From IMG/VR virus record IMGVR_UViG_3300025128_000277, positions 1-26,315 of that record: DNA of 26,315 nucleotides; one strand, 5' to 3'. Each line of letters opens with the position of its first letter. Within the stretch, counting starts at the first letter, position 1. Made by a program: the position numbers and the translations under genes. This document shows, piece after piece, positions 2,818 through 13,251 of this stretch. This stretch comes from a virus. Under the pieces are notes generated by a model, which saw only the letters and a list, made by a program, of their open reading frames with translations, was not told the DNA's origin and did no database searches.

Positions 2818-2954
2818 TTAGGAGTCCCCATATCGCCCCCACCCTTACATGGTACATCATAATTTTGTTAAGGGACTCCTAAAAATTTTTAGGGACTCCT
2901 ACTTTTTTTTAATTGGGACCCCTATTTTGGGACTCCTAATTTGTTGGGACTCCT
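2818..2954. repeat. GGGACTCCT repeat array before the rightward cassette
   Basis: Five direct copies of GGGACTCCT start at 2872, 2892, 2915 (one mismatch, GGGACCCCT), 2929 and 2946. One inverted copy lies at 2820-2828; it and its flanks make an 11-bp inverted repeat (TTAGGAGTCCC at 2818-2828 with GGGACTCCTAA at 2872-2882). Between the first two direct copies is a perfect 16-nt palindrome, CCTAAAAATTTTTAGG, at 2878-2893, and a T8 run follows the second copy. The last copy ends 10 nt before the first ATG of the rightward genes. The array marks the switch of coding strand and base composition. It could be an operator, an origin-type iteron array or an RNA structure. Confidence 0.7.
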
Positions 2955-2964
2955 ATATAACTAT

Positions 2965-3645
2965 ATGAACACATACGATAGAATTTATACTTTAATAACA
3001 GAAGCAAACAGGTCTAACCCACAACTAGATTACATTCTCAAATCTAAAGAAAATGTAATGAGCGGAGCTACCAGAGCATTCCGTAAAGGAGCCACAAAAG
3101 CTAAGAAGACAGGTAAAGGTAATAAGGGTGAGGATCTAATCAACACACTTCCTAAGAAATTTCCTGCAATGATGAGACGAGGAAGAAAAGCTAGAGGCAA
3201 ATCCACAATTCAGAACGAAGGAACAGGTTTTAGAAGAAAATTTCTAAGACAGGCTTCTAGAGATGATGATATTACATCAACTGAGGCTGGAACAATTGAT
3301 GCTGCAATGTACGCTAAAGCTCAAGGTGATAAGAAGGGTGCGAAAAAACTTTCAAAGAAAGTAGCAAAGAAAATTGCAATCAGAAGGCAAAAATCAGTAA
3401 CAGAAACTAGAGCTTCTAAGAAGACACAGGCTGCGTCTGAGAGAAGTGAGAGAAGAAAAAAACTTCCACTAAAGGATCAAGGTCGTGTAAGTAAAGGTGC
3501 CCTACCTGCAACATCTAATTACTCTGGTAAGATTCGTATGAGAGATCGTATGGCTTATGATAAGCAACAATCAGAAAAAAGAGACGCTGATCAACAAACT
3601 AAAAAGTTTACATCTGGTACATTAAGACAAAGGAGAGGAAAATGA
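2965..3645 (+). CDS. Putative capsid-internal protein with T4-like targeting leader, 226 aa
   Basis: The N-terminus MNTYDRIYTLITEA resembles the T4 capsid-targeting sequence of the internal proteins (MKTYQEFIAEA), including a possible prohead-protease site after ITE (residue 13). The rest is extremely Lys/Arg-rich (GATKAKKTGKGNKG, KKLSKKVAKKIAIRRQKS), low in hydrophobics and probably disordered, as expected of a protein packed with DNA. The ATG at 2965 is preferred to an in-frame TTG at 2941 because it restores the leader shared by the following genes. No Shine-Dalgarno is visible, and TATATA ends 5 nt before the ATG, so this transcript may also be leaderless. It is the first gene of the rightward cassette and overlaps the next by 4 nt (ATGA). 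Function after ejection is unknown. Confidence 0.7.
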   Translation: MNTYDRIYTLITEANRSNPQLDYILKSKENVMSGATRAFRKGATKAKKTGKGNKGEDLINTLPKKFPAMMRRGRKARGKSTIQNEGTGFRRKFLRQASRDDDITSTEAGTIDAAMYAKAQGDKKGAKKLSKKVAKKIAIRRQKSVTETRASKKTQAASERSERRKKLPLKDQGRVSKGALPATSNYSGKIRMRDRMAYDKQQSEKRDADQQTKKFTSGTLRQRRGK

Positions 3646-4289
3646 GTGTATACGAAAAAATTCGCGGCCTCCTAACGGAGGCAAAAACTGAAATGAACTC
3701 ATACAATAGAATACTAAACGAAATCTCGGCTGCTCAAGCTAAGGACATTGAGATTAAGCACTCAAAAGCTCCTGGACGTAGAGGTCTATTGGGGTTAAAA
3801 GCTCCAGACGCAGCAAAAACAGAGATTCATTCTCGTAAGGTCAGTGCTGCAAAGCAGAGAATTAAAGATAGAGATGCTATTAGTAGCGTGGAGCGATCCG
3901 ATGCGAAAGCTGACCGAGAATTGGGTCGTGATCTTAGTAATAGTCGAAGAAGCCAACTCTCTCAACAAGGAACACAAGCTAAATTTACAAAAAACCTGTA
4001 TACTCACAAAGTTCCTGGAGCAGACGGTAAGCCTGTAAAGGCTAGAGTAAAAATAGCAGCAAGCACTGAGATCAATATGCAGGGATACGGTAGACTAGCT
4101 GAAATGCTAGGTGGACAAGCAAAACCTTCTCACGGGTTTCCAGGACATGAGAAAAGAATGAAGGGTCATATGGAGAGAATCCAAAAGGATCCTAGATTTA
4201 CGGAACCAGATCAGGCAACAAGAGACAAGGGAAAGAAAGGGGCTTCTGCTTCGAACAAGGCACAAGCAAAGAAAAAAGAGAAAGGCTGA
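3642..4289 (+). CDS. Putative capsid-internal protein with doubled targeting leader, 215 aa
   Basis: It begins MSVYEKIRGLLTEA, a variant of the cassette leader with a perfect (L/I)xE site (LTE, residue 13). A second copy-like leader follows at residue 18: MNSYNRILNE, ending in LNE. Both methionines have a ribosome binding site (AGGAG before 3642; GGAGG at 3677-3681 before an ATG at 3693), so translation from two starts is possible. The mature part is basic and Gly/Lys-rich, with an alternating charged C-terminal tail (KGKKGASASNKAQAKKKEKG). No enzymatic motif is visible. It overlaps the preceding stop by 4 nt and is followed by a 100-nt gap that probably starts a new unit. Confidence 0.7.
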   Translation: MSVYEKIRGLLTEAKTEMNSYNRILNEISAAQAKDIEIKHSKAPGRRGLLGLKAPDAAKTEIHSRKVSAAKQRIKDRDAISSVERSDAKADRELGRDLSNSRRSQLSQQGTQAKFTKNLYTHKVPGADGKPVKARVKIAASTEINMQGYGRLAEMLGGQAKPSHGFPGHEKRMKGHMERIQKDPRFTEPDQATRDKGKKGASASNKAQAKKKEKG

Positions 4290-4390
4290 GGAAAGTAGGT
4301 TTTAGAACCTCCTTAGTGTAAGGAATAAAAAGAACGGGCGTTACTCGGGGGTTCTCCCTAAATAGAAAAGGGGGGAACAGGAGATTAATA

Positions 4391-4777
4391 ATGACCGATA
4401 AACCAATGATTAATGATAAAGGATATATTGATGTAAACTCTGCTTTAAAGCTTAAAGAAGCTGAAGGTAGAGTTGAAGTAGACAAAATGAATGCGGAATC
4501 TGATGCTAAATTCCGTGAATTACTAATTCGTGAAAGTGCAAAAGAAACTGCGTCTAAACACCTTGCAAAATTTGCTGGTTTTTACCTAACTTTCTTAGTA
4601 TGTACCTTCATTTTTAGTATACAATTCGTTCCCGAAACCAGTATTGCTGTTGTTGCAGGTTTGATCACGCTTGTTGTGACAAATTTATCAACTATTCTTA
4701 AGGGAATTGTTGAGAATGGCGACAGACAAGAAGAAGAGCTTCATGATGAAGCAAGAAAACGAGGATTAATGAAATGA
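4391..4777 (+). CDS. Two-transmembrane small protein, 128 aa
   Basis: The N-terminal 60 residues are a charged helical region (NSALKLKEAEGRVEVDKMNA), followed by two hydrophobic helices at about 61-80 (FAGFYLTFLVCTFIFSIQFV) and 84-107, then a charged tail ending in KRGLMK. The start has a good ribosome binding site (AGGAG). This layout, with both ends predicted inside, fits a class II holin, but phages also carry unrelated proteins of this shape. It overlaps the next membrane-protein gene by ATGA, so the two are coupled. Position inside a cassette of internal proteins leaves open a part in DNA or protein entry. Confidence 0.65.
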   Translation: MTDKPMINDKGYIDVNSALKLKEAEGRVEVDKMNAESDAKFRELLIRESAKETASKHLAKFAGFYLTFLVCTFIFSIQFVPETSIAVVAGLITLVVTNLSTILKGIVENGDRQEEELHDEARKRGLMK

Positions 4778-5004
4778 ACCCACTATGGGCACTATTATTT
4801 AAGGACAGATTGAGGACACCTTTCTCAGTGTATAAAATGAGTTTAGCTGAAGTAGTAGTTTTAGGAGCTATTGCATTTGGTATTGGTTATGGTTGTGTTC
4901 AAGGTGGAAAATGGCTTGTTGAAATTCTTCAAAATGCTTCACCTGTAGAGGTTACCGCTCCCGTAGAGGTTGCCGCCCCTCAAACACCTGTTACCCCTCA
5001 ATAA
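4774..5004 (+). CDS. Single-transmembrane small protein, 76 aa
   Basis: A basic N-terminus (LFKDRLRTPFSVYK) precedes one hydrophobic helix at about residues 24-43 with several glycines, and then a tail with a duplicated PVEV-T/A-AP motif and Thr/Pro-rich end (PQTPVTPQ). No lipobox or signal-peptidase site is evident. It is translationally coupled to the two-transmembrane gene upstream (ATGA), so the pair may act together in the host membrane, for example as holin and accessory. I do not recognise a family. Confidence 0.6.
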   Translation: MNPLWALLFKDRLRTPFSVYKMSLAEVVVLGAIAFGIGYGCVQGGKWLVEILQNASPVEVTAPVEVAAPQTPVTPQ

Positions 5005-5136
5005 TTGAACAAAAAGAACAAGGGGTACAGAAATAAAGACCCTAGATATAATGAGAAGCTTGCTGTGTTTAAACGGCAGGTAAAAAGATTGTTTGTTCGA
5101 GAGACCAAACGAAAACACGGGAAAAAATTAATATGA
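5005..5136 (+). CDS. Possible basic mini-protein with TTG start, 43 aa
   Basis: Directly after the TAA of the preceding gene, in the same frame, an open frame begins with TTG and runs 43 codons (NKKNKGYRNKDPRYNEKLAV, then KRQVKRLFVRETKRKHGKKL). Its TGA overlaps the ATG of the next gene (ATGA), which is typical of coupled genes here and the main reason to accept it. There is no Shine-Dalgarno before the TTG and no ATG. It could instead be reached by stop-codon readthrough or be non-coding. The strongly basic composition matches the cassette, but the shared leader is absent. Confidence 0.4.
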   Translation: MNKKNKGYRNKDPRYNEKLAVFKRQVKRLFVRETKRKHGKKLI

Positions 5137-5348
5137 ATTGGAAAGACAGAATATACAATAGTTTGACAGAAGAACTCACCGCAGATGGGAAAAGGGAATT
5201 AGTTGGCACTGTAAGAGGCCGACAAAGAGGACTGAAACCTCACGGTGGTAGAGGCAAAGTAACAACAACCCATAAAAACAAAAAAGGGCAGACTGTGATT
5301 GTTACTAAGATGCCTGATGGAACAGAAAAGAAAACAACATTGAAATGA
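5133..5348 (+). CDS. Putative capsid-internal protein with targeting leader, 71 aa
   Basis: The leader is MNWKDRIYNSLTE, with LTE at residues 11-13 as the predicted prohead-protease site. The remaining 58 residues are basic and Gly-rich (GRQRGLKPHGGRGKVTTTHK), with a short beta-like repeat TVIVTKMPDGTEKKTT at the end. No Cys. It overlaps the preceding and following frames by ATGA on each side. Cleavage would release a small basic peptide of about 58 residues into the capsid, similar in size to small T4 internal peptides. Confidence 0.7.
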   Translation: MNWKDRIYNSLTEELTADGKRELVGTVRGRQRGLKPHGGRGKVTTTHKNKKGQTVIVTKMPDGTEKKTTLK

Positions 5349-5506
5349 CAAGTAAGCATGTTCCTAAGGATAATACTTATGTCCACACTTTAGCTTGTAC
5401 TTTTAAAGCAAGCCCAAAAATAGCAGCAGAGGTTCTCTATGAAGAGTACCCAAAACAAGCTGTTGAACTAGCAAAAGAGATATTAAAAAATGAATTGGCA
5501 AAATAG
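5345..5506 (+). CDS. Small helical protein, 53 aa
   Basis: The frame starts at an ATG overlapping the previous TGA and encodes MTSKHVPKDNTYVHTLACTF followed by a helical segment with balanced charge (KIAAEVLYEEYPKQAVELAK). Unlike its neighbours it lacks the targeting leader and is not strongly basic. Its last 17 nt overlap the start of the next gene in another frame. The clean overlap and sensible amino-acid content support a real gene. No family is recognised; it might be a regulator or partner of the internal proteins. Confidence 0.6.
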   Translation: MTSKHVPKDNTYVHTLACTFKASPKIAAEVLYEEYPKQAVELAKEILKNELAK

Positions 5507-5978
5507 AATTTACGAGAGTTTAACAGAGGTAACTTTAAAAAAAGCAGCACAAGCTGCTGGGAAGGCTAGGTATACAAGACCTCAGCAAGTTCCCACAACG
5601 GGAGGTAGTCTCAACAGTCCACAAGACCCAAAACTGGCGGCGGCGAGTGCTCAAAAGACTGACGCTCAAATAAAAAGAGTTAAAGGGAAGTTAACCCAAC
5701 GAGCTATAAAGAAGCACGGTGAAGCGGGAGAAAAAAAGGTATATACGAGCCCAGGAGAAGTACCTGCTGAACTAGGTGGTGGTCGATATGAACGAAGCTT
5801 GAAAGGAACTGTTCCCAAAAGAACTGTTTATAGTGGTGGTAGAAGAGAGACACGCGCTCAATCGGTTGAGCGTAAATTTGAAAAAATCGCAGGGAAAGCC
5901 GAGAAAAAGAGTTCGAGAAATGACCCTAAGTACCAGCCTAAGCCTAAAGGAACAGACTCCATGGGTCGAGAGGGTTGA
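5490..5978 (+). CDS. Putative capsid-internal protein with targeting leader, 162 aa
   Basis: The leader MNWQNRIYESLTE is the clearest version in the cassette, with the predicted cut after LTE (residue 13). The body is Lys/Arg/Gly/Pro-rich and probably disordered (KKAAQAAGKARYTRPQQ; GGGRYERSLKGTVPKRTVYS; AEKKSSRNDPKYQPKPKG). No enzymatic motif or Cys. The first 30 nt of the gene are 29/30 identical to those of the gene at 5981, which points to recent duplication or exchange of the leader. Its ATG lies inside the end of the 53-aa gene. Confidence 0.7.
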   Translation: MNWQNRIYESLTEVTLKKAAQAAGKARYTRPQQVPTTGGSLNSPQDPKLAAASAQKTDAQIKRVKGKLTQRAIKKHGEAGEKKVYTSPGEVPAELGGGRYERSLKGTVPKRTVYSGGRRETRAQSVERKFEKIAGKAEKKSSRNDPKYQPKPKGTDSMGREG

Positions 5979-5980
5979 TT

Positions 5981-6193
5981 ATGAATTGGCAAAATAGAAT
6001 TTACGAAAGTATGCTAGAATCAGTTTATGATTATTCAAAAGAAAAAACTAAGCCTGTTGTTAAACGAGGCGACCCTTTTGCTCACTTGCCTAAAGCGTTA
6101 CAAAATAAAATCTTAGCAGGTAAAGCTTTGCGTGGTGGTGGAGCTAAGAAACTTGCTACAAACATTGACCGCTCAGGTGGAACTAAAAAATGA
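5981..6193 (+). CDS. Putative capsid-internal protein with targeting leader, 70 aa
   Basis: The leader MNWQNRIYESMLE is almost identical to that of the gene at 5490, with MLE in place of LTE at the predicted cleavage point. The remainder is basic (KEKTKPVVKRGD, ALRGGGAKKLATNI). I chose the ATG at 5981, which has AGAGG about 8 nt upstream, rather than an in-frame TTG two codons earlier. The TGA overlaps the next ATG. Confidence 0.7.
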   Translation: MNWQNRIYESMLESVYDYSKEKTKPVVKRGDPFAHLPKALQNKILAGKALRGGGAKKLATNIDRSGGTKK

Positions 6194-6567
6194 GAATACA
6201 AGATCGTATTTTAGAAGTAGGTAATCTAAATGAAGTGGGTGAAGATCCTCACAGACTAGGGCAAGTTGTTGGAAGATCCTTAACCAATATTAAGAACGCA
6301 AAAATTGAAAAGGGAGAGGCAAAAGACGATGAAAGGGTGGGTGACCCAAAGTTTAGTCAAGAACACCGACAAAAGAAAGTAAAACAAATGATGAGGATTT
6401 ACAAAAAAGTTGGCAAAAGAGGCGGTTTCTTATCAGGTGCGAAAAGTAAATTTAAAAAAGGGATGCTGGATCAGGGAGACTTTGTGCCTAAGAAACCTGA
6501 AACTCCCTCTATGCCTAAAAGAATAGCAGGTCTTAAAGTTACTGGGCCTGGAAGACTGAATAAATAG
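6190..6567 (+). CDS. Putative capsid-internal protein with divergent leader, 125 aa
   Basis: The start MRIQDRILEVGNLNEV keeps the (D/N)RI core of the cassette leader and offers two possible protease sites, ILE at residue 9 and LNE at residue 15. The rest is strongly basic (MMRIYKKVGKRGGFLSGAKS; KFKKGMLDQGDFVPKKPETP). No catalytic motif. It is the last gene before a pseudoknot-like element and a strong terminator, so the cassette from about 4391 to 6567 is probably one transcript. Confidence 0.65.
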   Translation: MRIQDRILEVGNLNEVGEDPHRLGQVVGRSLTNIKNAKIEKGEAKDDERVGDPKFSQEHRQKKVKQMMRIYKKVGKRGGFLSGAKSKFKKGMLDQGDFVPKKPETPSMPKRIAGLKVTGPGRLNK

Positions 6568-6568
6568 A

Positions 6569-6608
6569 CCAACTCCGAAGTGTTTACGCTTTTCGTGTTG
6601 GAACTTCG
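6569..6608 (+). other. Pseudoknot-capable 3' element
   Basis: Two interleaved inverted repeats lie just after the stop codon: CCAAC (6569-6573) can pair with GTTGG (6597-6601), and CGAAGT (6576-6581) with ACTTCG (6603-6608). The order A-B-A'-B' is that of an H-type pseudoknot, although the two stems may simply be alternatives. It directly precedes the terminator. Confidence 0.4.
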
Positions 6609-6612
6609 CTTG

Positions 6613-6648
6613 CTCCCCCTAATTCCTGTGTTTTAGGGGGAGTTTTTT
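6613..6648 (+). terminator. Strong intrinsic terminator after the internal-protein cassette
   Basis: A 10-bp perfect stem, CTCCCCCTAA (6613-6622) with TTAGGGGGAG (6633-6642), has a 10-nt loop and is followed at once by six T's. Confidence 0.92.
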
Positions 6649-6664
6649 GTTTAAATACCCTATC

Positions 6665-6729
6665 TATAATAGAAAGAGAGTTGCCGTAAGGGACTCTTTA
6701 CCCCCTTGTCGAAAGAAAGGAGAAAAACA
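6665..6729 (+). promoter_or_regulatory. hsp20 promoter -10 and structured 5' leader
   Basis: TATAAT at 6665-6670 predicts a start near 6677 and a leader of about 53 nt; no good -35 is visible. In the leader, CTCTTT (6694-6699) and CCTT (6704-6707) can pair with the ribosome binding site AAAGGAG (6716-6722), so the site may be masked. An RNA thermometer of the type known for heat-shock genes is possible. Confidence 0.45.
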
Positions 6730-7155
6730 ATGGGAAACTTCTATTGGACTAATTTTGATTATATTTGGAATGACCTCGATCTAGTCCTTCGAGATTGGCA
6801 CCGTATGGTGATCGAACCTAAAAAGCAATTAGCTTCTCTTCCAAATTACCCGCACTCTGATTGCTGGGTAGATGATGACTGTAACAAACTTTCGTTACGG
6901 TTTGCACTTGCTGGCTACGCAAAGGAAAATATCAGCGTAAAAGCCAGTAAAAACGTCCTGCGAATCACCGCAAAAGGTGTGGTTGAACAGGGTGTCAAAT
7001 TCGTGCATCACGGAATCAGCAAAAAAGATGTGGACTTTTCGCTGAATATTGACGAGGCTTTCAATCTAAAGAAAGCTAAGACTGAGTTTGTTGATGGGCT
7101 TTTATCCATCGTCATCCCTAGAGCAAAGGAGGCAGAACTGGTTGAACTAATGTAA
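6730..7155 (+). CDS. hsp20: Small heat-shock protein (Hsp20 / alpha-crystallin family), 141 aa
   Basis: An aromatic N-terminus (MGNFYWTNFDYIWNDLDLVL) leads into an alpha-crystallin domain: LSLRFALAGYAKENISVKAS with the family's A-G-[FYV]-x-[KR]-E-x-[IL] segment, then VLRITAKG, a region matching the dimer loop, FSLNIDEAFNLKKAKTEFVDG, and LLSIVIPRA, the usual G-x-L-x-[IV]-x-[IV]-P end. The protein is an ATP-independent chaperone that holds unfolding proteins. Hsp20 genes are common in T4-like marine phages and may assist virion assembly. The ATG at 6730 has an ideal AGGAG at 7-8 nt and is chosen over an in-frame TTG at 6706. The gene stands alone between two terminators. Confidence 0.92.
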   Translation: MGNFYWTNFDYIWNDLDLVLRDWHRMVIEPKKQLASLPNYPHSDCWVDDDCNKLSLRFALAGYAKENISVKASKNVLRITAKGVVEQGVKFVHHGISKKDVDFSLNIDEAFNLKKAKTEFVDGLLSIVIPRAKEAELVELM

Positions 7156-7173
7156 CTTTTTGCTCCTTAGTAA

Positions 7174-7211
7174 AAAAAAGTCGATCAAAGTTACATTTGG
7201 TCGGCTTTTTT
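7174..7211. terminator. Probable bidirectional intrinsic terminator
   Basis: A stem between AGTCGATC (7179-7186) and GGTCGGCT (7199-7206), with two G-T pairs and a 12-nt loop, is flanked by an A-tract on the left and a T-tract on the right. It can end hsp20 transcription rightward and transcription of the glycosyltransferase-like gene leftward. Confidence 0.8.
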
Positions 7212-7215
7212 ACTA

Positions 7216-7221
7216 TATACT
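7216..7221 (+). promoter_or_regulatory. -10 element placed for a leaderless transcript
   Basis: TATACT lies 6 nt before the ATG at 7228, the same geometry as the minus-strand promoters in the first 2.7 kb. There is no clear -35 and no Shine-Dalgarno (GGTAGC fills the gap). Confidence 0.45.
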
Positions 7222-7227
7222 GGTAGC

Positions 7228-7440
7228 ATGAACTGGATAAACGAATTAAAGACACTTGTATTAGAAGCAGATAAGCGTGAGACTATTCAACAGCGTATTT
7301 CTGCTAATGTTGCAAAAATAAAAGCGCATAAAGGCACTAGAACACCAGAGATTGAAGCATTAAGACGTAAAACAATGGAAATGATTACAAAAGGTAGAGC
7401 AATGGAGACTTCACCAAAGAAATCAAGCCCTGAGCGGTAG
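7228..7440 (+). CDS. Putative capsid-internal protein with leader variant, 70 aa
   Basis: The start MNWINELKTLVLEADKRE is a variant of the cassette leader (MNW, then a helical stretch ending in LE before Ala), with a weaker protease site (VLE). The body is helical and basic (QQRISANVAKIKAHKGTRTP; EMITKGRAMETSPKKSSPER). It is separated from the other members by hsp20 and has its own -10 element. Its 3' end overlaps the converging minus-strand gene by 18 nt. Confidence 0.6.
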   Translation: MNWINELKTLVLEADKRETIQQRISANVAKIKAHKGTRTPEIEALRRKTMEMITKGRAMETSPKKSSPER

Positions 7441-8112
7441 TTGTTGCCTAAAGATCTTAATATACGCTTCTCTGTTTTTGTGCCAGGAGTCTCTACCTGC
7501 TAACTCACCTTTAGACTCATGCATTATCTGAATAGGGAGTGTATGGTTTTCTTTTTTCTTTAGAAATGTCTGTGTAGTGTAGAAAATATCATAGAAGTCC
7601 CATTCTCCTTCAAAAAATTTAGGTTTGGTCATTTGAATAGATCTTAATGTCTTTTTAGTTGCAGCCAAGAATAGACCATCTAAAACAGCTACTTTCCCTA
7701 ACTTCCCAAAGTGCGTATCATCAGCTTTTGTAGCATCTGACCCATGTAAGACATATCCGCTGTGAAATCCTCTCTCCCAAAGATCTTTATCCCACCAAAC
7801 AGCGTCTCTGCTTAATATTTTTGTTCCTGCTACTCCAACAAAACCAACATTAGGTTTTGATAACTTTTCTTTTAGTAGTGAGGTAAATACTATAGGATCG
7901 GTGAGTATTTTTATATCATCATGACAAAGAATTACAATATCATTTGGATCGGCTTGTAGTTTATCTATGCCGTTTTCATATGCGTCGAATATTGATTTTT
8001 CGTCTACGAGAAGTTTTGATTGAATATCGCATCTTTTAAAATACTCTAATAGATTAGATGTCGTTTCTGACATCTCTCCACCTCTAGTACAAGTTAAGGA
8101 ATGAATTTTCAT
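7423..8112 (-). CDS. Glycosyltransferase-like protein (GT2-like fold), 229 aa
   Basis: Features of the small GT2-like family are visible: an N-terminal beta strand with a basic tip (MKIHSLTCTRGG), a segment DPNDIVILCHDDIKILTDP whose HDD takes the place of the nucleotide-sugar-binding DxD, a conserved VGVAGTKIL strand, and KVAVLDGLFLAATKKTL with the LDG seen at the acceptor side, followed by EGEWDFYDIFYT (candidate catalytic acid and metal contacts). The predicted reaction is transfer of a sugar from a nucleotide sugar; the acceptor (phage DNA, virion protein or host surface) is unknown. Its ATG shares the CATG at 8110-8113 with the start of terminase on the other strand, so its promoter must lie inside terminase. 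Confidence 0.7.
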   Translation of the reverse strand: MKIHSLTCTRGGEMSETTSNLLEYFKRCDIQSKLLVDEKSIFDAYENGIDKLQADPNDIVILCHDDIKILTDPIVFTSLLKEKLSKPNVGFVGVAGTKILSRDAVWWDKDLWERGFHSGYVLHGSDATKADDTHFGKLGKVAVLDGLFLAATKKTLRSIQMTKPKFFEGEWDFYDIFYTTQTFLKKKENHTLPIQIMHESKGELAGRDSWHKNREAYIKIFRQQLPLRA

Positions 8113-9652
8113 GGAAGCTGATGTTTTAGAAGAATTTAAACGCTGTAAGGAAGACCCTACACATTTTATGTCTAAGTATGTGCGTGTAACACACCCTGTT
8201 AGAGGATTAGTCCCCTTTAAATTATACCCATTTCAAGAAAGAATTGTTGGAGAACTTCAAACAAATCGTTTCAATATTCTAAGAAAGTTTAGACAGGCAG
8301 GGTGTACAACCATAGCAGCAGCCTATGCATTATGGTTGGCAGTATTTGAGCGACACCAATCTATCGTTATTTTGTCTAAAGGTGATACTGAAGCAACTGA
8401 GGTGTTAGATAGAATTAAGATTATGTATGAAGAGCTTCCATCTTTCTTGCAACCAGGAATAACTGAGGATAACAAGCATACACTAAAGCTAAAGAACAGG
8501 TCAATAATTAAATCAAGACCTTCAGGCAAGCAATCAGGTAGATCTCTAGCTGGTTCTTTCTTGATTATTGACGAAGCAGCCTTTGTTGAGTCTATTGATA
8601 CCATCTGGGCAGCCGTTTACCCAATTATCTCTACAGGTGGTCGAGCCTTTATCTTATCAACCGTAAATGGTGTTGGTAACTGGTTTTATGAGACTTACTA
8701 TAGGGCCATAGAAAAAGCTAACTCTTTTAATGCAATTGATATTACTTGGAAAGAGCATCCAGAGTACTACAGAGTTAAAGGGTTTGAAAAACTATACGAG
8801 CAAATGGAGAAAAGAACTCCTCCTATGAATGTTGATGATTGGGTAGCGGTCACAAAATCCAACATGCCTAGAAAACAATGGCTACAGGAGTATGAGTGTG
8901 AGTTTTTAGGCACAGGAGATACTTTTATTGACGGATCACTTCTTTCCCACCTAGCTGAGAGTGTAAATTCGGGATACTATACCAAGTATAACAATAGAAT
9001 GCGCGTTTGGAAGGATCCTGAGCCTTTTTATGATTATATTATCGGAGTAGACACTGCTTTAGGTAGAGGTAGAGATTACTCCGCAGCACAAATAATAAAT
9101 ATGTACAATGGAGAGGTTGTTGCGGAGTTTTATAGCAACAAAACACCTATTGATGAGTTTGCATCCATCCTCAATAAGGAGGGTATTTATTATAATACAG
9201 CTAATTTAATCGTAGAAAGAAATACTGTTGGAAATCATGTCCTTGATTTACTCTATAATAAGTTAGAGTACGAAAATTTATGGCACGATGAAAGGGGTTT
9301 AACTGGCTTTCAGGTTACTATGAAGAACCGAGAGACAATTTTATCCGAGTTAGAAGAAAGTATTAGGACTAATGTTCTAAAAATTAATTCTGAACGCACT
9401 TTAAATGAGCTAAATACCTTTGTAATAACAAATTCAGGAAAGATAACTGCTGATAATGGTAAACACGATGACCTAATTATGAGTTTAAGTCTTGCAAACC
9501 ATATCATGAAGAGCACTAGAGACAATTCTTTCATCGAATTTACAAAAGAGAATGCTTTTAAGGAAACAAAACTTTACCCTAAGAGCACAAAAATACCTTT
9601 AATATCAAAAGGTAAGCAAGTAATAGAGGATATTGAATGGCTGATGAAGTAG
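8111..9652 (+). CDS. Terminase large subunit (T4 gp17-like), 513 aa
   Basis: This is the ATP-driven DNA packaging motor and headful nuclease. The N-terminal ATPase shows a deviant Walker A (RQAGCTT, 61-67), Walker B with catalytic Glu (LIIDEA, 151-156) and the coupling motif (LSTVNG, 182-187; T4 has STPNG). The C-terminal RNase H-type nuclease has acidic residues at D314 (IIGVDTALGRGRDYS), E369 (LIVERN) and D453/D454 (KHDDLIMS). Length is somewhat below T4 gp17 (610 aa). A weak ribosome binding site (AAGGA, about 10 nt) precedes the start. It overlaps the portal gene by 16 nt, so the two motor parts are co-expressed. No small terminase subunit is recognised nearby. Confidence 0.96.
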   Translation: MEADVLEEFKRCKEDPTHFMSKYVRVTHPVRGLVPFKLYPFQERIVGELQTNRFNILRKFRQAGCTTIAAAYALWLAVFERHQSIVILSKGDTEATEVLDRIKIMYEELPSFLQPGITEDNKHTLKLKNRSIIKSRPSGKQSGRSLAGSFLIIDEAAFVESIDTIWAAVYPIISTGGRAFILSTVNGVGNWFYETYYRAIEKANSFNAIDITWKEHPEYYRVKGFEKLYEQMEKRTPPMNVDDWVAVTKSNMPRKQWLQEYECEFLGTGDTFIDGSLLSHLAESVNSGYYTKYNNRMRVWKDPEPFYDYIIGVDTALGRGRDYSAAQIINMYNGEVVAEFYSNKTPIDEFASILNKEGIYYNTANLIVERNTVGNHVLDLLYNKLEYENLWHDERGLTGFQVTMKNRETILSELEESIRTNVLKINSERTLNELNTFVITNSGKITADNGKHDDLIMSLSLANHIMKSTRDNSFIEFTKENAFKETKLYPKSTKIPLISKGKQVIEDIEWLMK

Positions 9653-11409
9653 AAAACCAAATTGTTGAAGATGGTGGACAATCAACTTGGGCAAATTATG
9701 CAACCAAGGGACCTTATTTTTATCCTAGAGGGGCTTTAGGTAGGTTTTTCGCTAGGTTTTTTGCAACAAAAGCCCAAGACGCAGTAATTCAGGCCGTTTC
9801 TGACGTAGAGGGTCCAAACCTAACAGGTGATACTAAGCTAAAAAGCTCTGATCCTGCCGATAATACAGGTGCAGCGGCATTTACTATTAACAGGACCACT
9901 CCCGTCTATTCAGAGATCGAAAGATCAAGAAAAGAGCGATATAAAGACTACGAATCCATGGATGAGTACCCTGAGGTTGGTAGTGCTTTTGATATGTACG
10001 CTGATGACTCCACTCAAAAGGATACACAGCACAGAAGGTGGTCAGTTCGATCAGAAAGCCCTGAAGTAGTTCAAGAAATTGAAGATCTTTTTCAGAATGT
10101 ACAACTAGACAGGTATTATTACGATATTGTTCGAAATGCTGTTAAGTTTGGAGACTGCTTTCTTGAGATTATTGCAGATGTTAATAACCCCACAGCAGGG
10201 GTGCAAAGAGTAAAGATACTAAACCCCAATTATCTAATTAGAGTAGAAGATAATTATGGTTATCTAAAAACCTTTTTGCAGCAAATTCCAGATAACACTA
10301 CGATTGATGCTAGTTACCAAGCACCTCTACAGACTGGAAACAAAGATAGTCAGTATATTGAGCTAGATAAAAACCAAATTATACACTTTAGACTGTTTAC
10401 CTCAGATCCTAAGTTTTATCCTTATGGTAAATCAGTTGCTGCTTATGGAGTACACACCTTTAGGTCTCTAAAGCTCATGGAAGACGCGATGCTTATTTAC
10501 AGGCTTGCGCGAGCACCAGAAAGAAGGATCTTTTACGTTGATGTTGGCAACCTGCCTTCTAGCAAAGCAGAGCTTTTCATGGAACGAGTTAAAGAGAAGT
10601 TTAAGAAAGAAAAATACTTCAGGAATAAAGGAGTTGATGCTCGTTATAACCCTCTAGCTGCGGATGAAGATTACTTTGTTCCTATTAAAGGAAATCAAAA
10701 TACTCGTATTGAAACACTTCCTGGAGCCCAGAACCTTGGTGAGGTAACAGATGTTTCTTACTTTAGAGATAAACTACTTGCTGCTCTTAAAGTTCCAAAA
10801 GACTTTATTAGTCAGGACAAAGGGCAACAAGCAGAAAAGAAAGCTAATCTATCCGAACTAGATGTTAAGTTTTCCCGTGCAGTGGCAAGAGTTCAACATG
10901 AGATAGAAGTAGGTTTAGAGATAATGGCAAAAAGACATTTAGCTCTTAAAAAGTACCCTACTTCTTTAATAAACTCGCTTAGAATACAATTACCTGATCC
11001 TTCTGATAGATTTACCAAGAGGAAGCTGGAAATTGATGAAATGAGATTAAGAATAATTCAGGGCGTTACTCAAACTCAACTATTCCCTAAAGATCATATC
11101 TACAGAGAGTATTATGAGATGAGTGACGGAGAGATTGCTTTACTGAAGCAAAAACTAAAACAAGAGGCAGAAGATGCTGCATATCAGCAGCAGGAACTGA
11201 ATCAAATATCCCCAGGAGCGGGAGAGCTACCTCAAGGAAATACGCCTGGAGGGCAGGAAGCAGTTCCTACTCAACAAGCAAGAGAAGCTTTTTCTGAAAT
11301 AGAGGGGTTAAGGTCAAAACTTGTAGAAGAAAACGGGTATAGGCCAGCAGAGCAGAAAGTCTGGAAAAGAATTTTAGAAAAAATACCAGAAACTAAAAAA
11401 AAGCCTTAA
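9637..11409 (+). CDS. Portal protein (T4 gp20-like), 590 aa
   Basis: It forms the dodecameric ring at the capsid vertex through which DNA enters and leaves and to which terminase docks. The T4 portal core is clear: YPYGKSVAAYGVHTFRSLKL followed by LMEDAMLIYRLARAPERRIF and YVDVGNLPSSKAELFMERV, then ETLPGAQNLGEVTDVSYFRD and LLAALKVPKDFISQD. The crown/C-terminal region beyond about residue 500 is Gln/Glu-rich and ends in a basic KKKP. It is slightly longer than T4 gp20 (524 aa) because of extra N-terminal and C-terminal stretches. It starts inside the terminase 3' end. Confidence 0.95.
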   Translation: MADEVENQIVEDGGQSTWANYATKGPYFYPRGALGRFFARFFATKAQDAVIQAVSDVEGPNLTGDTKLKSSDPADNTGAAAFTINRTTPVYSEIERSRKERYKDYESMDEYPEVGSAFDMYADDSTQKDTQHRRWSVRSESPEVVQEIEDLFQNVQLDRYYYDIVRNAVKFGDCFLEIIADVNNPTAGVQRVKILNPNYLIRVEDNYGYLKTFLQQIPDNTTIDASYQAPLQTGNKDSQYIELDKNQIIHFRLFTSDPKFYPYGKSVAAYGVHTFRSLKLMEDAMLIYRLARAPERRIFYVDVGNLPSSKAELFMERVKEKFKKEKYFRNKGVDARYNPLAADEDYFVPIKGNQNTRIETLPGAQNLGEVTDVSYFRDKLLAALKVPKDFISQDKGQQAEKKANLSELDVKFSRAVARVQHEIEVGLEIMAKRHLALKKYPTSLINSLRIQLPDPSDRFTKRKLEIDEMRLRIIQGVTQTQLFPKDHIYREYYEMSDGEIALLKQKLKQEAEDAAYQQQELNQISPGAGELPQGNTPGGQEAVPTQQAREAFSEIEGLRSKLVEENGYRPAEQKVWKRILEKIPETKKKP

Positions 11410-11454: not shown

Positions 11455-13251
11455 ATGTTTGACCATATCTTTGAGAATAGAGACAGAAAGATAACTAATA
11501 TCGTCAAGTTATCGGATTATCTCGGAAGGTCGTTGAGAGAAAATGTTGAAGTATTTTCTATTGATGACACAGAAAATAAAGCTACCTTCGTCACTGAAAG
11601 CGGTAAAATTATCGCAGGTTCATACAACTTTGAAAAAGATGTTGAACTTAAGAATATTCAGATTGAGGACGGAGAGCTTTTTGAGGACGATCAGAGGTTT
11701 GATGAATTTGTAGACTACAAAATCTCAAACTTTGTACAAAATATTTTTGAGGAAGATTTTGTTGAAGCAGATACTAGCTTTAACAAAGTTCTTCAATTAT
11801 GGGAGAGTAGAGTTAAGTTCTCCTCCGTGAAGAAAAAACTCTACGAGAAATCCCAAAAATTCAATGGGTCAAATAGAATCATAGATAGTGAAGAGTTCCA
11901 GAAGGTAGTAGAGATTGCTCCTCAACTCGTAAACTTCTTAAAAGAAAACGAAAACTTAGTAAACATTCCTGAAATTAACAACATGGTCAAGCTATCATCG
12001 TCAGTTTCAAAGGCTTTTGCTTTACCTAAGATTTCATATGATTCTTTAAACGAAACTACTTACACAATTCCAGAAAATGTAAATCATACTATCTATGAAA
12101 TGATTTGCAAGCAGGAATTGATTAGAAAAGAGTTAGTTGAATCAAAAAACAGCTTTAACTTGGTTTGGTTGAACAACGAGAAGATCTCTAATCTTGCCAC
12201 CTTAGTGTATGAAGGCAATGAAGAGGTTGTCGTTAAAGCTTTAGTTGAGGCTGTTTGTGAAGTCCCTTACTTAGCTTTAGCTACAAAGAGACAAATCACA
12301 GAGACGCTGACCAGCAATCTTGAGTTAAACGAGTCGATTAAGGTTAATATGAAGGACATCAAGGCATTTAGTAGTGCCTTGTTTGAGTATAAGAAGCCTT
12401 TAAAGAACTTGTTTGTTTCAATGCTAAATGAAAAGTATGGAATCAGCGTTCAAAATCTAAAAGATATTCCCACCTTTAAAAGCTTGCTTAACACGCAAGT
12501 TTTAATTTTTGAGGCTTTAGCAAAGTTAAGCCCTAAAGCTTCTGTTCAAAAAGAAGTCTTAGTCGAAGCTGCGGCAATGCTAAAGGCCAAAAATGGTGTG
12601 GAATCTATTGATGTTAACCACTTCATCGAATTATTGTTTGAAAAATCAGGTTATCAAGACTACATCGTTGATGAGCCTTTAGTTGAAAATATCTCAATTA
12701 AAGAGACCTTCTCCGAAATGGAATCAATGGAAGAACTGATTGAAGCAATTTTAGTAGAAAACAAAAAGAAATCTAAAAAAGCAAAGCCTGATTACATTGA
12801 TATAGATGGTGATGGCGATAAGAACGAACCTATGAAAAAAGCCGTTCAAGACAAAAAGAAAGGCAAAACAATGTCTGAAGAGGACTCAGAGGAAGAATCT
12901 GAAGAGTCGGTAGACGAAGGCGCTAAGAAAGGTTATCCTGAGATGGGAATCAAAGGTGGCACTGAAGAAGCAGCGGCTGAAGCCAAAAAACGAAAGAAAA
13001 AGAAGGTTCAAGAAGAAGAGGCTGAGGAAACTGAGGTTGAAGAAGCTCCTGAAGAGTTAGAGGAGCAAGAAGTAGAAGAAAAACAAGCTCCTACCTCAGA
13101 TGAAATCATGTCCTCCTTCAAGGACTTCGAAGACATTCTTAACTCAATTGATTTTGAGGACATCATGAAAGACTCTCAAGAAGAGGAAGAAGAAGAGGAA
13201 ACCGAAACCGAAGAAGAGGAAGTTGATTCTCAGGAGGAGACTGAAGAATGA
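11455..13251 (+). CDS. Large virion-assembly protein with acidic C-terminal region, 598 aa; possible scaffold/core
   Basis: Residues 1-430 are a mostly helical, acidic region without a motif I recognise. Then comes a Lys-rich linker (ENKKKSKKAKPDYIDIDGDG) containing DIDGDGDKNE, an EF-hand/dockerin-like calcium loop often seen in marine phage virion proteins. The last third is extremely acidic (runs of Glu such as EEEEEEETETEEEE). T4 has its core (gp67, gp68), protease (gp21) and scaffold (gp22) right after portal, and an acidic helical protein here suits a scaffold or core component, but homology is not visible. It has an AAGGAG ribosome binding site and a possible promoter (TATATAGAT) in the 45-nt gap after portal, and overlaps the next gene by ATGA. 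Confidence 0.6.
   Translation: MFDHIFENRDRKITNIVKLSDYLGRSLRENVEVFSIDDTENKATFVTESGKIIAGSYNFEKDVELKNIQIEDGELFEDDQRFDEFVDYKISNFVQNIFEEDFVEADTSFNKVLQLWESRVKFSSVKKKLYEKSQKFNGSNRIIDSEEFQKVVEIAPQLVNFLKENENLVNIPEINNMVKLSSSVSKAFALPKISYDSLNETTYTIPENVNHTIYEMICKQELIRKELVESKNSFNLVWLNNEKISNLATLVYEGNEEVVVKALVEAVCEVPYLALATKRQITETLTSNLELNESIKVNMKDIKAFSSALFEYKKPLKNLFVSMLNEKYGISVQNLKDIPTFKSLLNTQVLIFEALAKLSPKASVQKEVLVEAAAMLKAKNGVESIDVNHFIELLFEKSGYQDYIVDEPLVENISIKETFSEMESMEELIEAILVENKKKSKKAKPDYIDIDGDGDKNEPMKKAVQDKKKGKTMSEEDSEEESEESVDEGAKKGYPEMGIKGGTEEAAAEAKKRKKKKVQEEEAEETEVEEAPEELEEQEVEEKQAPTSDEIMSSFKDFEDILNSIDFEDIMKDSQEEEEEEETETEEEEVDSQEETEE

Follow-up and report, generated by a model that had tools for sequence, protein, structure and literature searches.

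Seven genes with a shared N-terminal leader in a distant marine T4-like phage are probable candidates for internal capsid proteins

The IMG/VR virus record IMGVR_UViG_3300025128_000277 is a genome fragment, and its whole length of 26,315 bases is the window analyzed here. Between positions 2,965 and 7,440 lie seven genes whose products begin with related N-termini and continue into unrelated bodies. An earlier note, made from the letters of this DNA alone, had read the N-termini as a T4-type capsid-targeting leader and the bodies as its cargo; the seven open reading frames (ORFs) and their start positions are as it gave them. The leaders are of two types, a tyrosine type with consensus MN[ST]YERIYNLLTE and a tryptophan type with consensus MNWQDRIYESLTE, and the genes are the following.

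2965..3645, plus strand: putative cargo 1, 226 aa; leader MNTYDRIYTLITE, tyrosine-type, predicted cut after E13
3642..4289, plus strand: putative cargo 2, 215 aa; leader MSVYEKIRGLLTE, tyrosine-type
5133..5348, plus strand: putative cargo 3, 71 aa; leader MNWKDRIYNSLTE, tryptophan-type
5490..5978, plus strand: putative cargo 4, 162 aa; leader MNWQNRIYESLTE, tryptophan-type
5981..6193, plus strand: putative cargo 5, 70 aa; leader MNWQNRIYESMLE, tryptophan-type, P3 is Met
6190..6567, plus strand: putative cargo 6, 125 aa; leader MRIQDRILEVGNLNE, possible sites ILE9 or LNE15; the weakest member
7228..7440, plus strand: putative cargo 7, 70 aa; leader MNWINELKTLVLE, tryptophan-type

The relationship among the N-termini was recovered by a de novo search in which all N-termini were compared, pairs with similar bodies were left out and shuffles served as the null. 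Seven pairs were seen in the window against 0.05 expected, and six of the seven genes were recovered, which upholds the claim of related N-termini on unrelated bodies. The MKTYQEFIAE proteins of T4 were recovered as a positive control. The gene at 6190 was not found by this pair search, and its leader profile score of 6.0 is attained 0.46 times per 1,083 genes in shuffles; it was kept in the set also because of its position and its ATGA overlap with 5981.

Close relatives of the phage were found among IMG/VR contigs by means of the terminase. A leader profile built on residues 2 to 8 drew 63 proteins, and once six from small conserved families outside the cassette had been set aside, 57 proteins of the window and its relatives remained, with bodies that fall into 38 groups. 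Over these 57, column information is high at residues 1 to 13 and near random from residue 15 (columns 15 to 26), so that what is shared is a short leader (within 10 to 19 residues) on unrelated bodies, with similarity limited to residues 1 to 13. The relative L260, which played no part in building the profile, adds eight leader genes, arranged alike, and seven of these end in LTE, ITE, LLE or LVE. The same leader on unrelated bodies in related phages, which the earlier note had proposed to look for, is thus present.

Glutamate occupies residue 13 in 44 of the 57 proteins, and a strict (L/I)xE, the form of the site at which the T4 gp21 protease cuts, fills residues 11 to 13 in 43. As the first seeds were picked with a pattern that included [LIVM]xE, the fair test is the one on the 31 proteins outside both pattern and seed list: 24 of these have [LIVM]xE at residues 11 to 13, compared with 43 of 969 other genes (4.4%). 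Codons differ for L11 in 65% and for E13 in 51% of the protein pairs that share the residue, and the retention of both residues while their codons vary indicates that selection acts on the protein. Within the window, five leaders end in the strict motif (ITE, LTE three times and LNE) and not four, as had been counted before; MLE (5981) and VLE (7228) do fall outside the strict form, as the earlier note had it.

As no protease or capsid gene was found in the window fragment, the matching protease was sought in relatives. An S77 (gp21) protease scores above the curated cut-off in five larger relatives, among them the leader-bearing G001 and G002, with motifs GEL(D/N)HP and SSRG that align with T4 gp21. 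On the G002 contig, where the terminase is 81% identical, the protease, core gene, capsid gene and a leader cassette all occur together; the G002 protease lies at L087:8700-10217 on the minus strand. The lack of a prohead protease, which the earlier note had named as a ground for abandoning its reading, is therefore not what these relatives present. Their gp23-type capsid proteins have an inferred cut site just before a variable linker, assigned from where it falls in comparison with T4 gp23, not from experiment, at which P3 is Leu in 31, Ile in 11, Met in 7 and Val in 2 of 51 distinct sequences. All seven window leaders, including those with MLE and VLE, lie within this inferred (L/I/M/V)xE range.

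The bodies were described earlier as mostly rich in Lys and Arg and disordered. Nearly all are Lys/Arg-rich and net positive, many look disordered, and the median net charge per residue is +0.145 for bodies and -0.015 for other genes. The bodies are also poor in the protease site, with [LI]xE seen 14 times against 29.0 expected (z -3.1), or 8 times against 20.0 when one protein is taken per body group; the control patterns ExL, LxD, LE, LxxE and [VF]xE show no depletion. Several of the few remaining body sites sit in tandem or internal leader copies. Cargo 2, for example, has a second, tandem leader-like stretch, MNSYNRILNE, directly after the first leader, and its residual internal sites are LNE25 and LAE152. 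The seven window bodies alone give 2 sites against 4.0 expected, which are small numbers. In the core proteins of the same phages the motif is enriched (44 against 19.9 expected), and in other genes slightly so (808 against 629); together with the gp23-type sites, the core proteins supply the (L/I)xE sites in other capsid proteins that the earlier note had asked after. As the bodies avoid the site in which the core proteins are rich, the pattern fits a cargo that is cut once and kept, not a scaffold that is shredded. Among the new arguments for capsid cargo with a single cut, this avoidance, a property of the sequences, is the strongest, and it indirectly suggests that the mature body would survive the protease.

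The T4-type capsid-targeting reading is well supported: unrelated basic bodies share a leader with the site at a fixed place and themselves avoid further sites, and relatives have a protease and a capsid-protein site to match. The phage is a distant marine relative of T4, and its seven genes very probably code for internal capsid proteins that are docked by their leader and cut by a gp21-type protease. We infer docking, packaging, cleavage and ejection, as well as the action of each cargo. The 13-residue N-terminal leader would dock each protein onto the prohead core, and the protease would cut after residue 13 (9 or 15 in 6190) at (L/I/M/V)xE during head maturation. The freed basic body would then stay with the packaged DNA and would probably enter the host with it. 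By analogy with T4 IPI, a role of the cargo in counter-defence is conceivable, although we would put it somewhat short of an even chance.

That internal proteins of diverse kinds can carry one conserved targeting sequence is already known (PMC3012670), and the present leader is in kind a T4 capsid-targeting sequence. As in T4 IPI, IPII and IPIII (PMC3012670, PMC9026906), a short N-terminal leader precedes unrelated, mostly basic bodies and ends at a gp21-type site, with counterparts of gp21, gp22 and gp23 found here in relatives. In the T4 leader, residues 4 and 7 serve targeting and residues 8 and 10 processing (PMC9026906); the targeting residues (Tyr, Phe) align with Tyr4 and Ile7 of the tyrosine-type leader. 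No homology to MKTYQEFIAE was found, the correspondence being limited to Tyr4, hydrophobicity at residue 7 and the motif at the end; such homology is not a defining feature for function, as other leader dialects exist, for instance in P-SSM2 and L031. The system further differs from T4 in its 13-residue leader (MN[ST]YERIYNLLTE or MNWQDRIYESLTE), in having two leader types in two gene blocks, in its number of genes (seven in the window and at least eight in relatives, whereas T4 has three named IPs), in bodies that resemble no known family and in a P3 position that can be Met or Val. In the giant phages phiKZ and SPN3US (PMC9026906, PMC10052503), likewise, a gp21 homologue cleaves head proteins behind Glu, the protease has a C-terminal propeptide and many proteins are packed in the head. 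The SPN3US propeptides are mostly long (111 to 254 residues, with two short), whereas those predicted here are about 13 residues and common to unrelated bodies. DarA and Hdf of phage P1, head-linked proteins that protect against restriction (PMC12810830), are a functional analogue only and a model for a possible cargo role.

No description of this leader or clade was found in the literature searched. What is new is the clade, the leader with its two types, the cargo, the lineage styles, the leader-DNA islands, the site-avoidance evidence and the protease tails. An idea known in detail from few phages is thereby extended to a large uncultured marine group, and a shared leader, a fixed cut site and site-avoiding bodies together make a rule by which capsid cargo can be listed from sequence, with no need of cultures. 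Lists of this kind would name candidate proteins that enter the host as infection begins, possible counter-defence proteins included, and the leader types offer natural variation with which to study what lets a protein enter a phage head.

Several points weigh against this interpretation. The 26,315-base fragment itself yielded neither a recognised prohead protease nor a major capsid gene. The site in 6190 and 7228 deviates from the strict form or place, and Asp replaces Glu at the predicted cut (VID) in two homologues of 5981 (L005 6725, L003 1288); Asp at P1 in T4 allows targeting and blocks processing (PMC9026906). The p-values are optimistic and overstate independence, because the proteins and phages are related. 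Comparison of the cargo with Pfam, PHROGs and NCBIfam gave no match worth naming, so that no library names any body. A sequence search of the PDB with two cargo queries returned chance matches only, and in none of these scans was a body related to IPI. We know of no virion proteomics for this clade, and no cultured member of it was found.

The alternative that survives best keeps the leader mechanism and drops the ejected effector: the proteins would act inside the head, in charge balance or packaging of the DNA, and have no host target. The positive, Lys/Arg-rich and often disordered bodies are what such a role would lead one to expect, and in T4 the DNA phosphates are contacted by lysines of the internal proteins (PMC3012670). 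On the other side, cargo genes turn over between close phages and are exchanged singly and patchily, which resembles an arms race more than bulk charge balance, and the conservation of some bodies suggests specific roles; the body of 7228 is conserved in five relatives, in which W3 and E13 are invariant. We regard a purely in-head function as a serious possibility, yet a rather doubtful one.

It could also be proposed that these are prohead core proteins, needed for assembly and then chopped up. The leaders would place them in the core, and in T4 the gp21 protease also cuts core proteins, namely gp22, gp67 and gp68 (PMC9026906). The core genes of the relatives, however, are conserved and include acidic proteins, whereas the bodies are basic, highly variable and depleted of the very site in which the core proteins are enriched, and the proposal is improbable. 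More improbable again is that the N-terminus signals something other than head entry, for instance attachment to a host enzyme or to the membrane. The leader does appear as a short helix (residues 3 to 14, the first of three) in a low-confidence AlphaFold2 model of the 7228 group (pLDDT 67), but it ends at the motif inferred for the clade's own capsid protease, similar stretches occur in the tail of that protease, and the bodies avoid its site. Chance likeness, or simple divergence of one duplicated gene, has next to no probability: local duplication does happen, as the almost identical first 30 nt of 5490 and 5981 imply, but this explanation is already contradicted by the column information with its abrupt stop at residue 13 over 57 proteins, by the de novo pairs, by the held-out test and by body segments that can follow either leader type.

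To return to the putative internal capsid proteins, the arrangement of their genes is compatible with a history of exchange. The set is not a single run: it is split by a conserved gene pair and by the leaderless genes at 5005, 5345 and 6730 (Hsp20). The pair is as follows.

4391..4777, plus strand: putative membrane protein, leaderless and conserved; hydrophobic stretch read in the sequence; same place in L090 and L260
4774..5004, plus strand: putative membrane protein, leaderless and conserved, partner of 4391; hydrophobic stretch read in the sequence

The tyrosine-type genes 2965 and 3642 precede the pair, and the tryptophan-type genes 5133, 5490, 5981 and 7228, with 6190, follow it. This two-block layout is common to the window, L005, L026, L090 and L260, and the more distant G001 mixes both types. 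Leader DNA forms islands of 42 to 64 nt with 88 to 96% identity between phages, behind which the bodies mostly differ; one such island, the first 42 to 45 nt of 5490, is shared with L005, L010, L017, L026 and L260, where other bodies follow it. The stretch 5003-5348 is 95% identical to L026, with adjoining blocks mostly at 72 to 90%, and a synonymous/non-synonymous comparison on 5133 had too few changes. Two body groups contain the same short segment behind either leader type; the cargo 1 segment SGATRAFRK, for instance, recurs behind a tryptophan-type leader in L030_4374. Cargo 2 has a homologue in L026_3237 (59% over 70 aa). The islands, the 5003-5348 patch and the segments behind either type are what exchange would produce if recombination took place at the leader.

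The protease of the relatives may add to this picture. Its ORF is 202 to 222 aa in T4 and four other phages, whereas in the relatives it runs 46 to 679 residues past the DLVADP motif, in a tail that is mostly basic. An N-x-[YF]-xx-[LIV]-[KRY]-xx-L-x-E stretch occurs in 12 of 16 near-clade tails, and a YxxIGxxLAE-like stretch in 14 of 28 more distant ones; both patterns were written after the tails had been inspected, which makes the shuffled comparison descriptive only. A tail often has one to three such leader-like motifs, and the style of the stand-alone leader matches that of the tail by lineage (MN[ST]YERIYNLLTE in the near lineage, TYRYIGHLIAE in L065, NTYKYIGLLIAE in G003). With a profile made from stand-alone tyrosine-type leaders alone, 10 of 16 near tails and 7 of 29 distant tails reach p<=0.05 at their best match, which in the near tails mostly falls on the motif; this is suggestive and not proof because the tails are homologous. 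Run on all G002 proteins, the profile ranks the tail motif third with 0.4 expected by chance, which alone is not significant. The stretches NQYAFLREFLVE and NTYAALKGLLLE in the G002 tail may be self-cut sites, and loss of a C-terminal piece is known for T4 gp21 and for the proteases of the giant phages (PMC9026906, PMC10052503). It is possible, if less likely than not, that the protease of this clade is itself a cargo carrier whose self-cleavage would release further internal proteins, as part of an exchangeable delivery system with the cassette in which leader and tail change together by lineage. Stretches resembling calcium-binding loops (FPDLNKDGEITKADVL or DVDNDGDTDSSDAYL) occur in the distant tails of L199, L207, L218, L219 and L231.

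Upstream of the first cargo gene lies a possible promoter.

2872..2964, plus strand: array of five tandem GGGACTCCTA copies, one of them mismatched, that ends in GGGACTCCTATATAACTAT

A TATATAA box closes the array (2872-2955) 11 nt upstream of the ATG at 2965. A matching GGGACTCCTA block stands 19 nt upstream of the first cassette start in L011, L026 and L098, and a related TATATAAAT form of the element occurs in L041, L061 and L043, so the block is possibly a shared promoter. Boxes of the T4 late-promoter kind upstream of head genes gave no clear pattern.

The de novo search also picked up proteins with MKSFxQFLxE in P-SSM2 (L158, L161) and, in Flavobacterium phage immuto, proteins with MENFDLKKFLVEN (L134, L139, L140; MENFDLKKFLVENKLT). 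Both phages are cultured, and these N-termini on unrelated bodies are candidate capsid leaders for which virion proteomics is feasible.

Between the cargo genes lie an Hsp20-type small heat-shock protein gene (6730-7155), the DNA of which is conserved in several relatives, and two short leaderless ORFs, 5005-5136, which resembles ORFs in L048 and L075, and 5345-5506, the DNA of which is conserved in L003. Two further genes follow the cassette.

8111..9652, plus strand: terminase large subunit (gp17-like), PHROG 2, E 1.5e-45; used to find relatives
9637..11409, plus strand: portal protein (gp20-like), PHROG 213, E 1.3e-77

Both are T4-type, with only about 24 to 36% identity to the best-matching records of the phage collection. 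Directly after the portal gene, 11455-13251 encodes a 598-aa protein for which neither PHROGs nor tblastn against the phage collection gave a match and Pfam gave a single weak one at chance level; it has a very acidic C-terminus and a DYIDIDGDGDKNEP motif. The photosystem gene psbA was not found in seven records. Among the more distant relatives is a 130.6 kb contig that belongs to a record of a Prochlorococcus single-cell assembly, AG-409-P03; its terminase is 69% identical.

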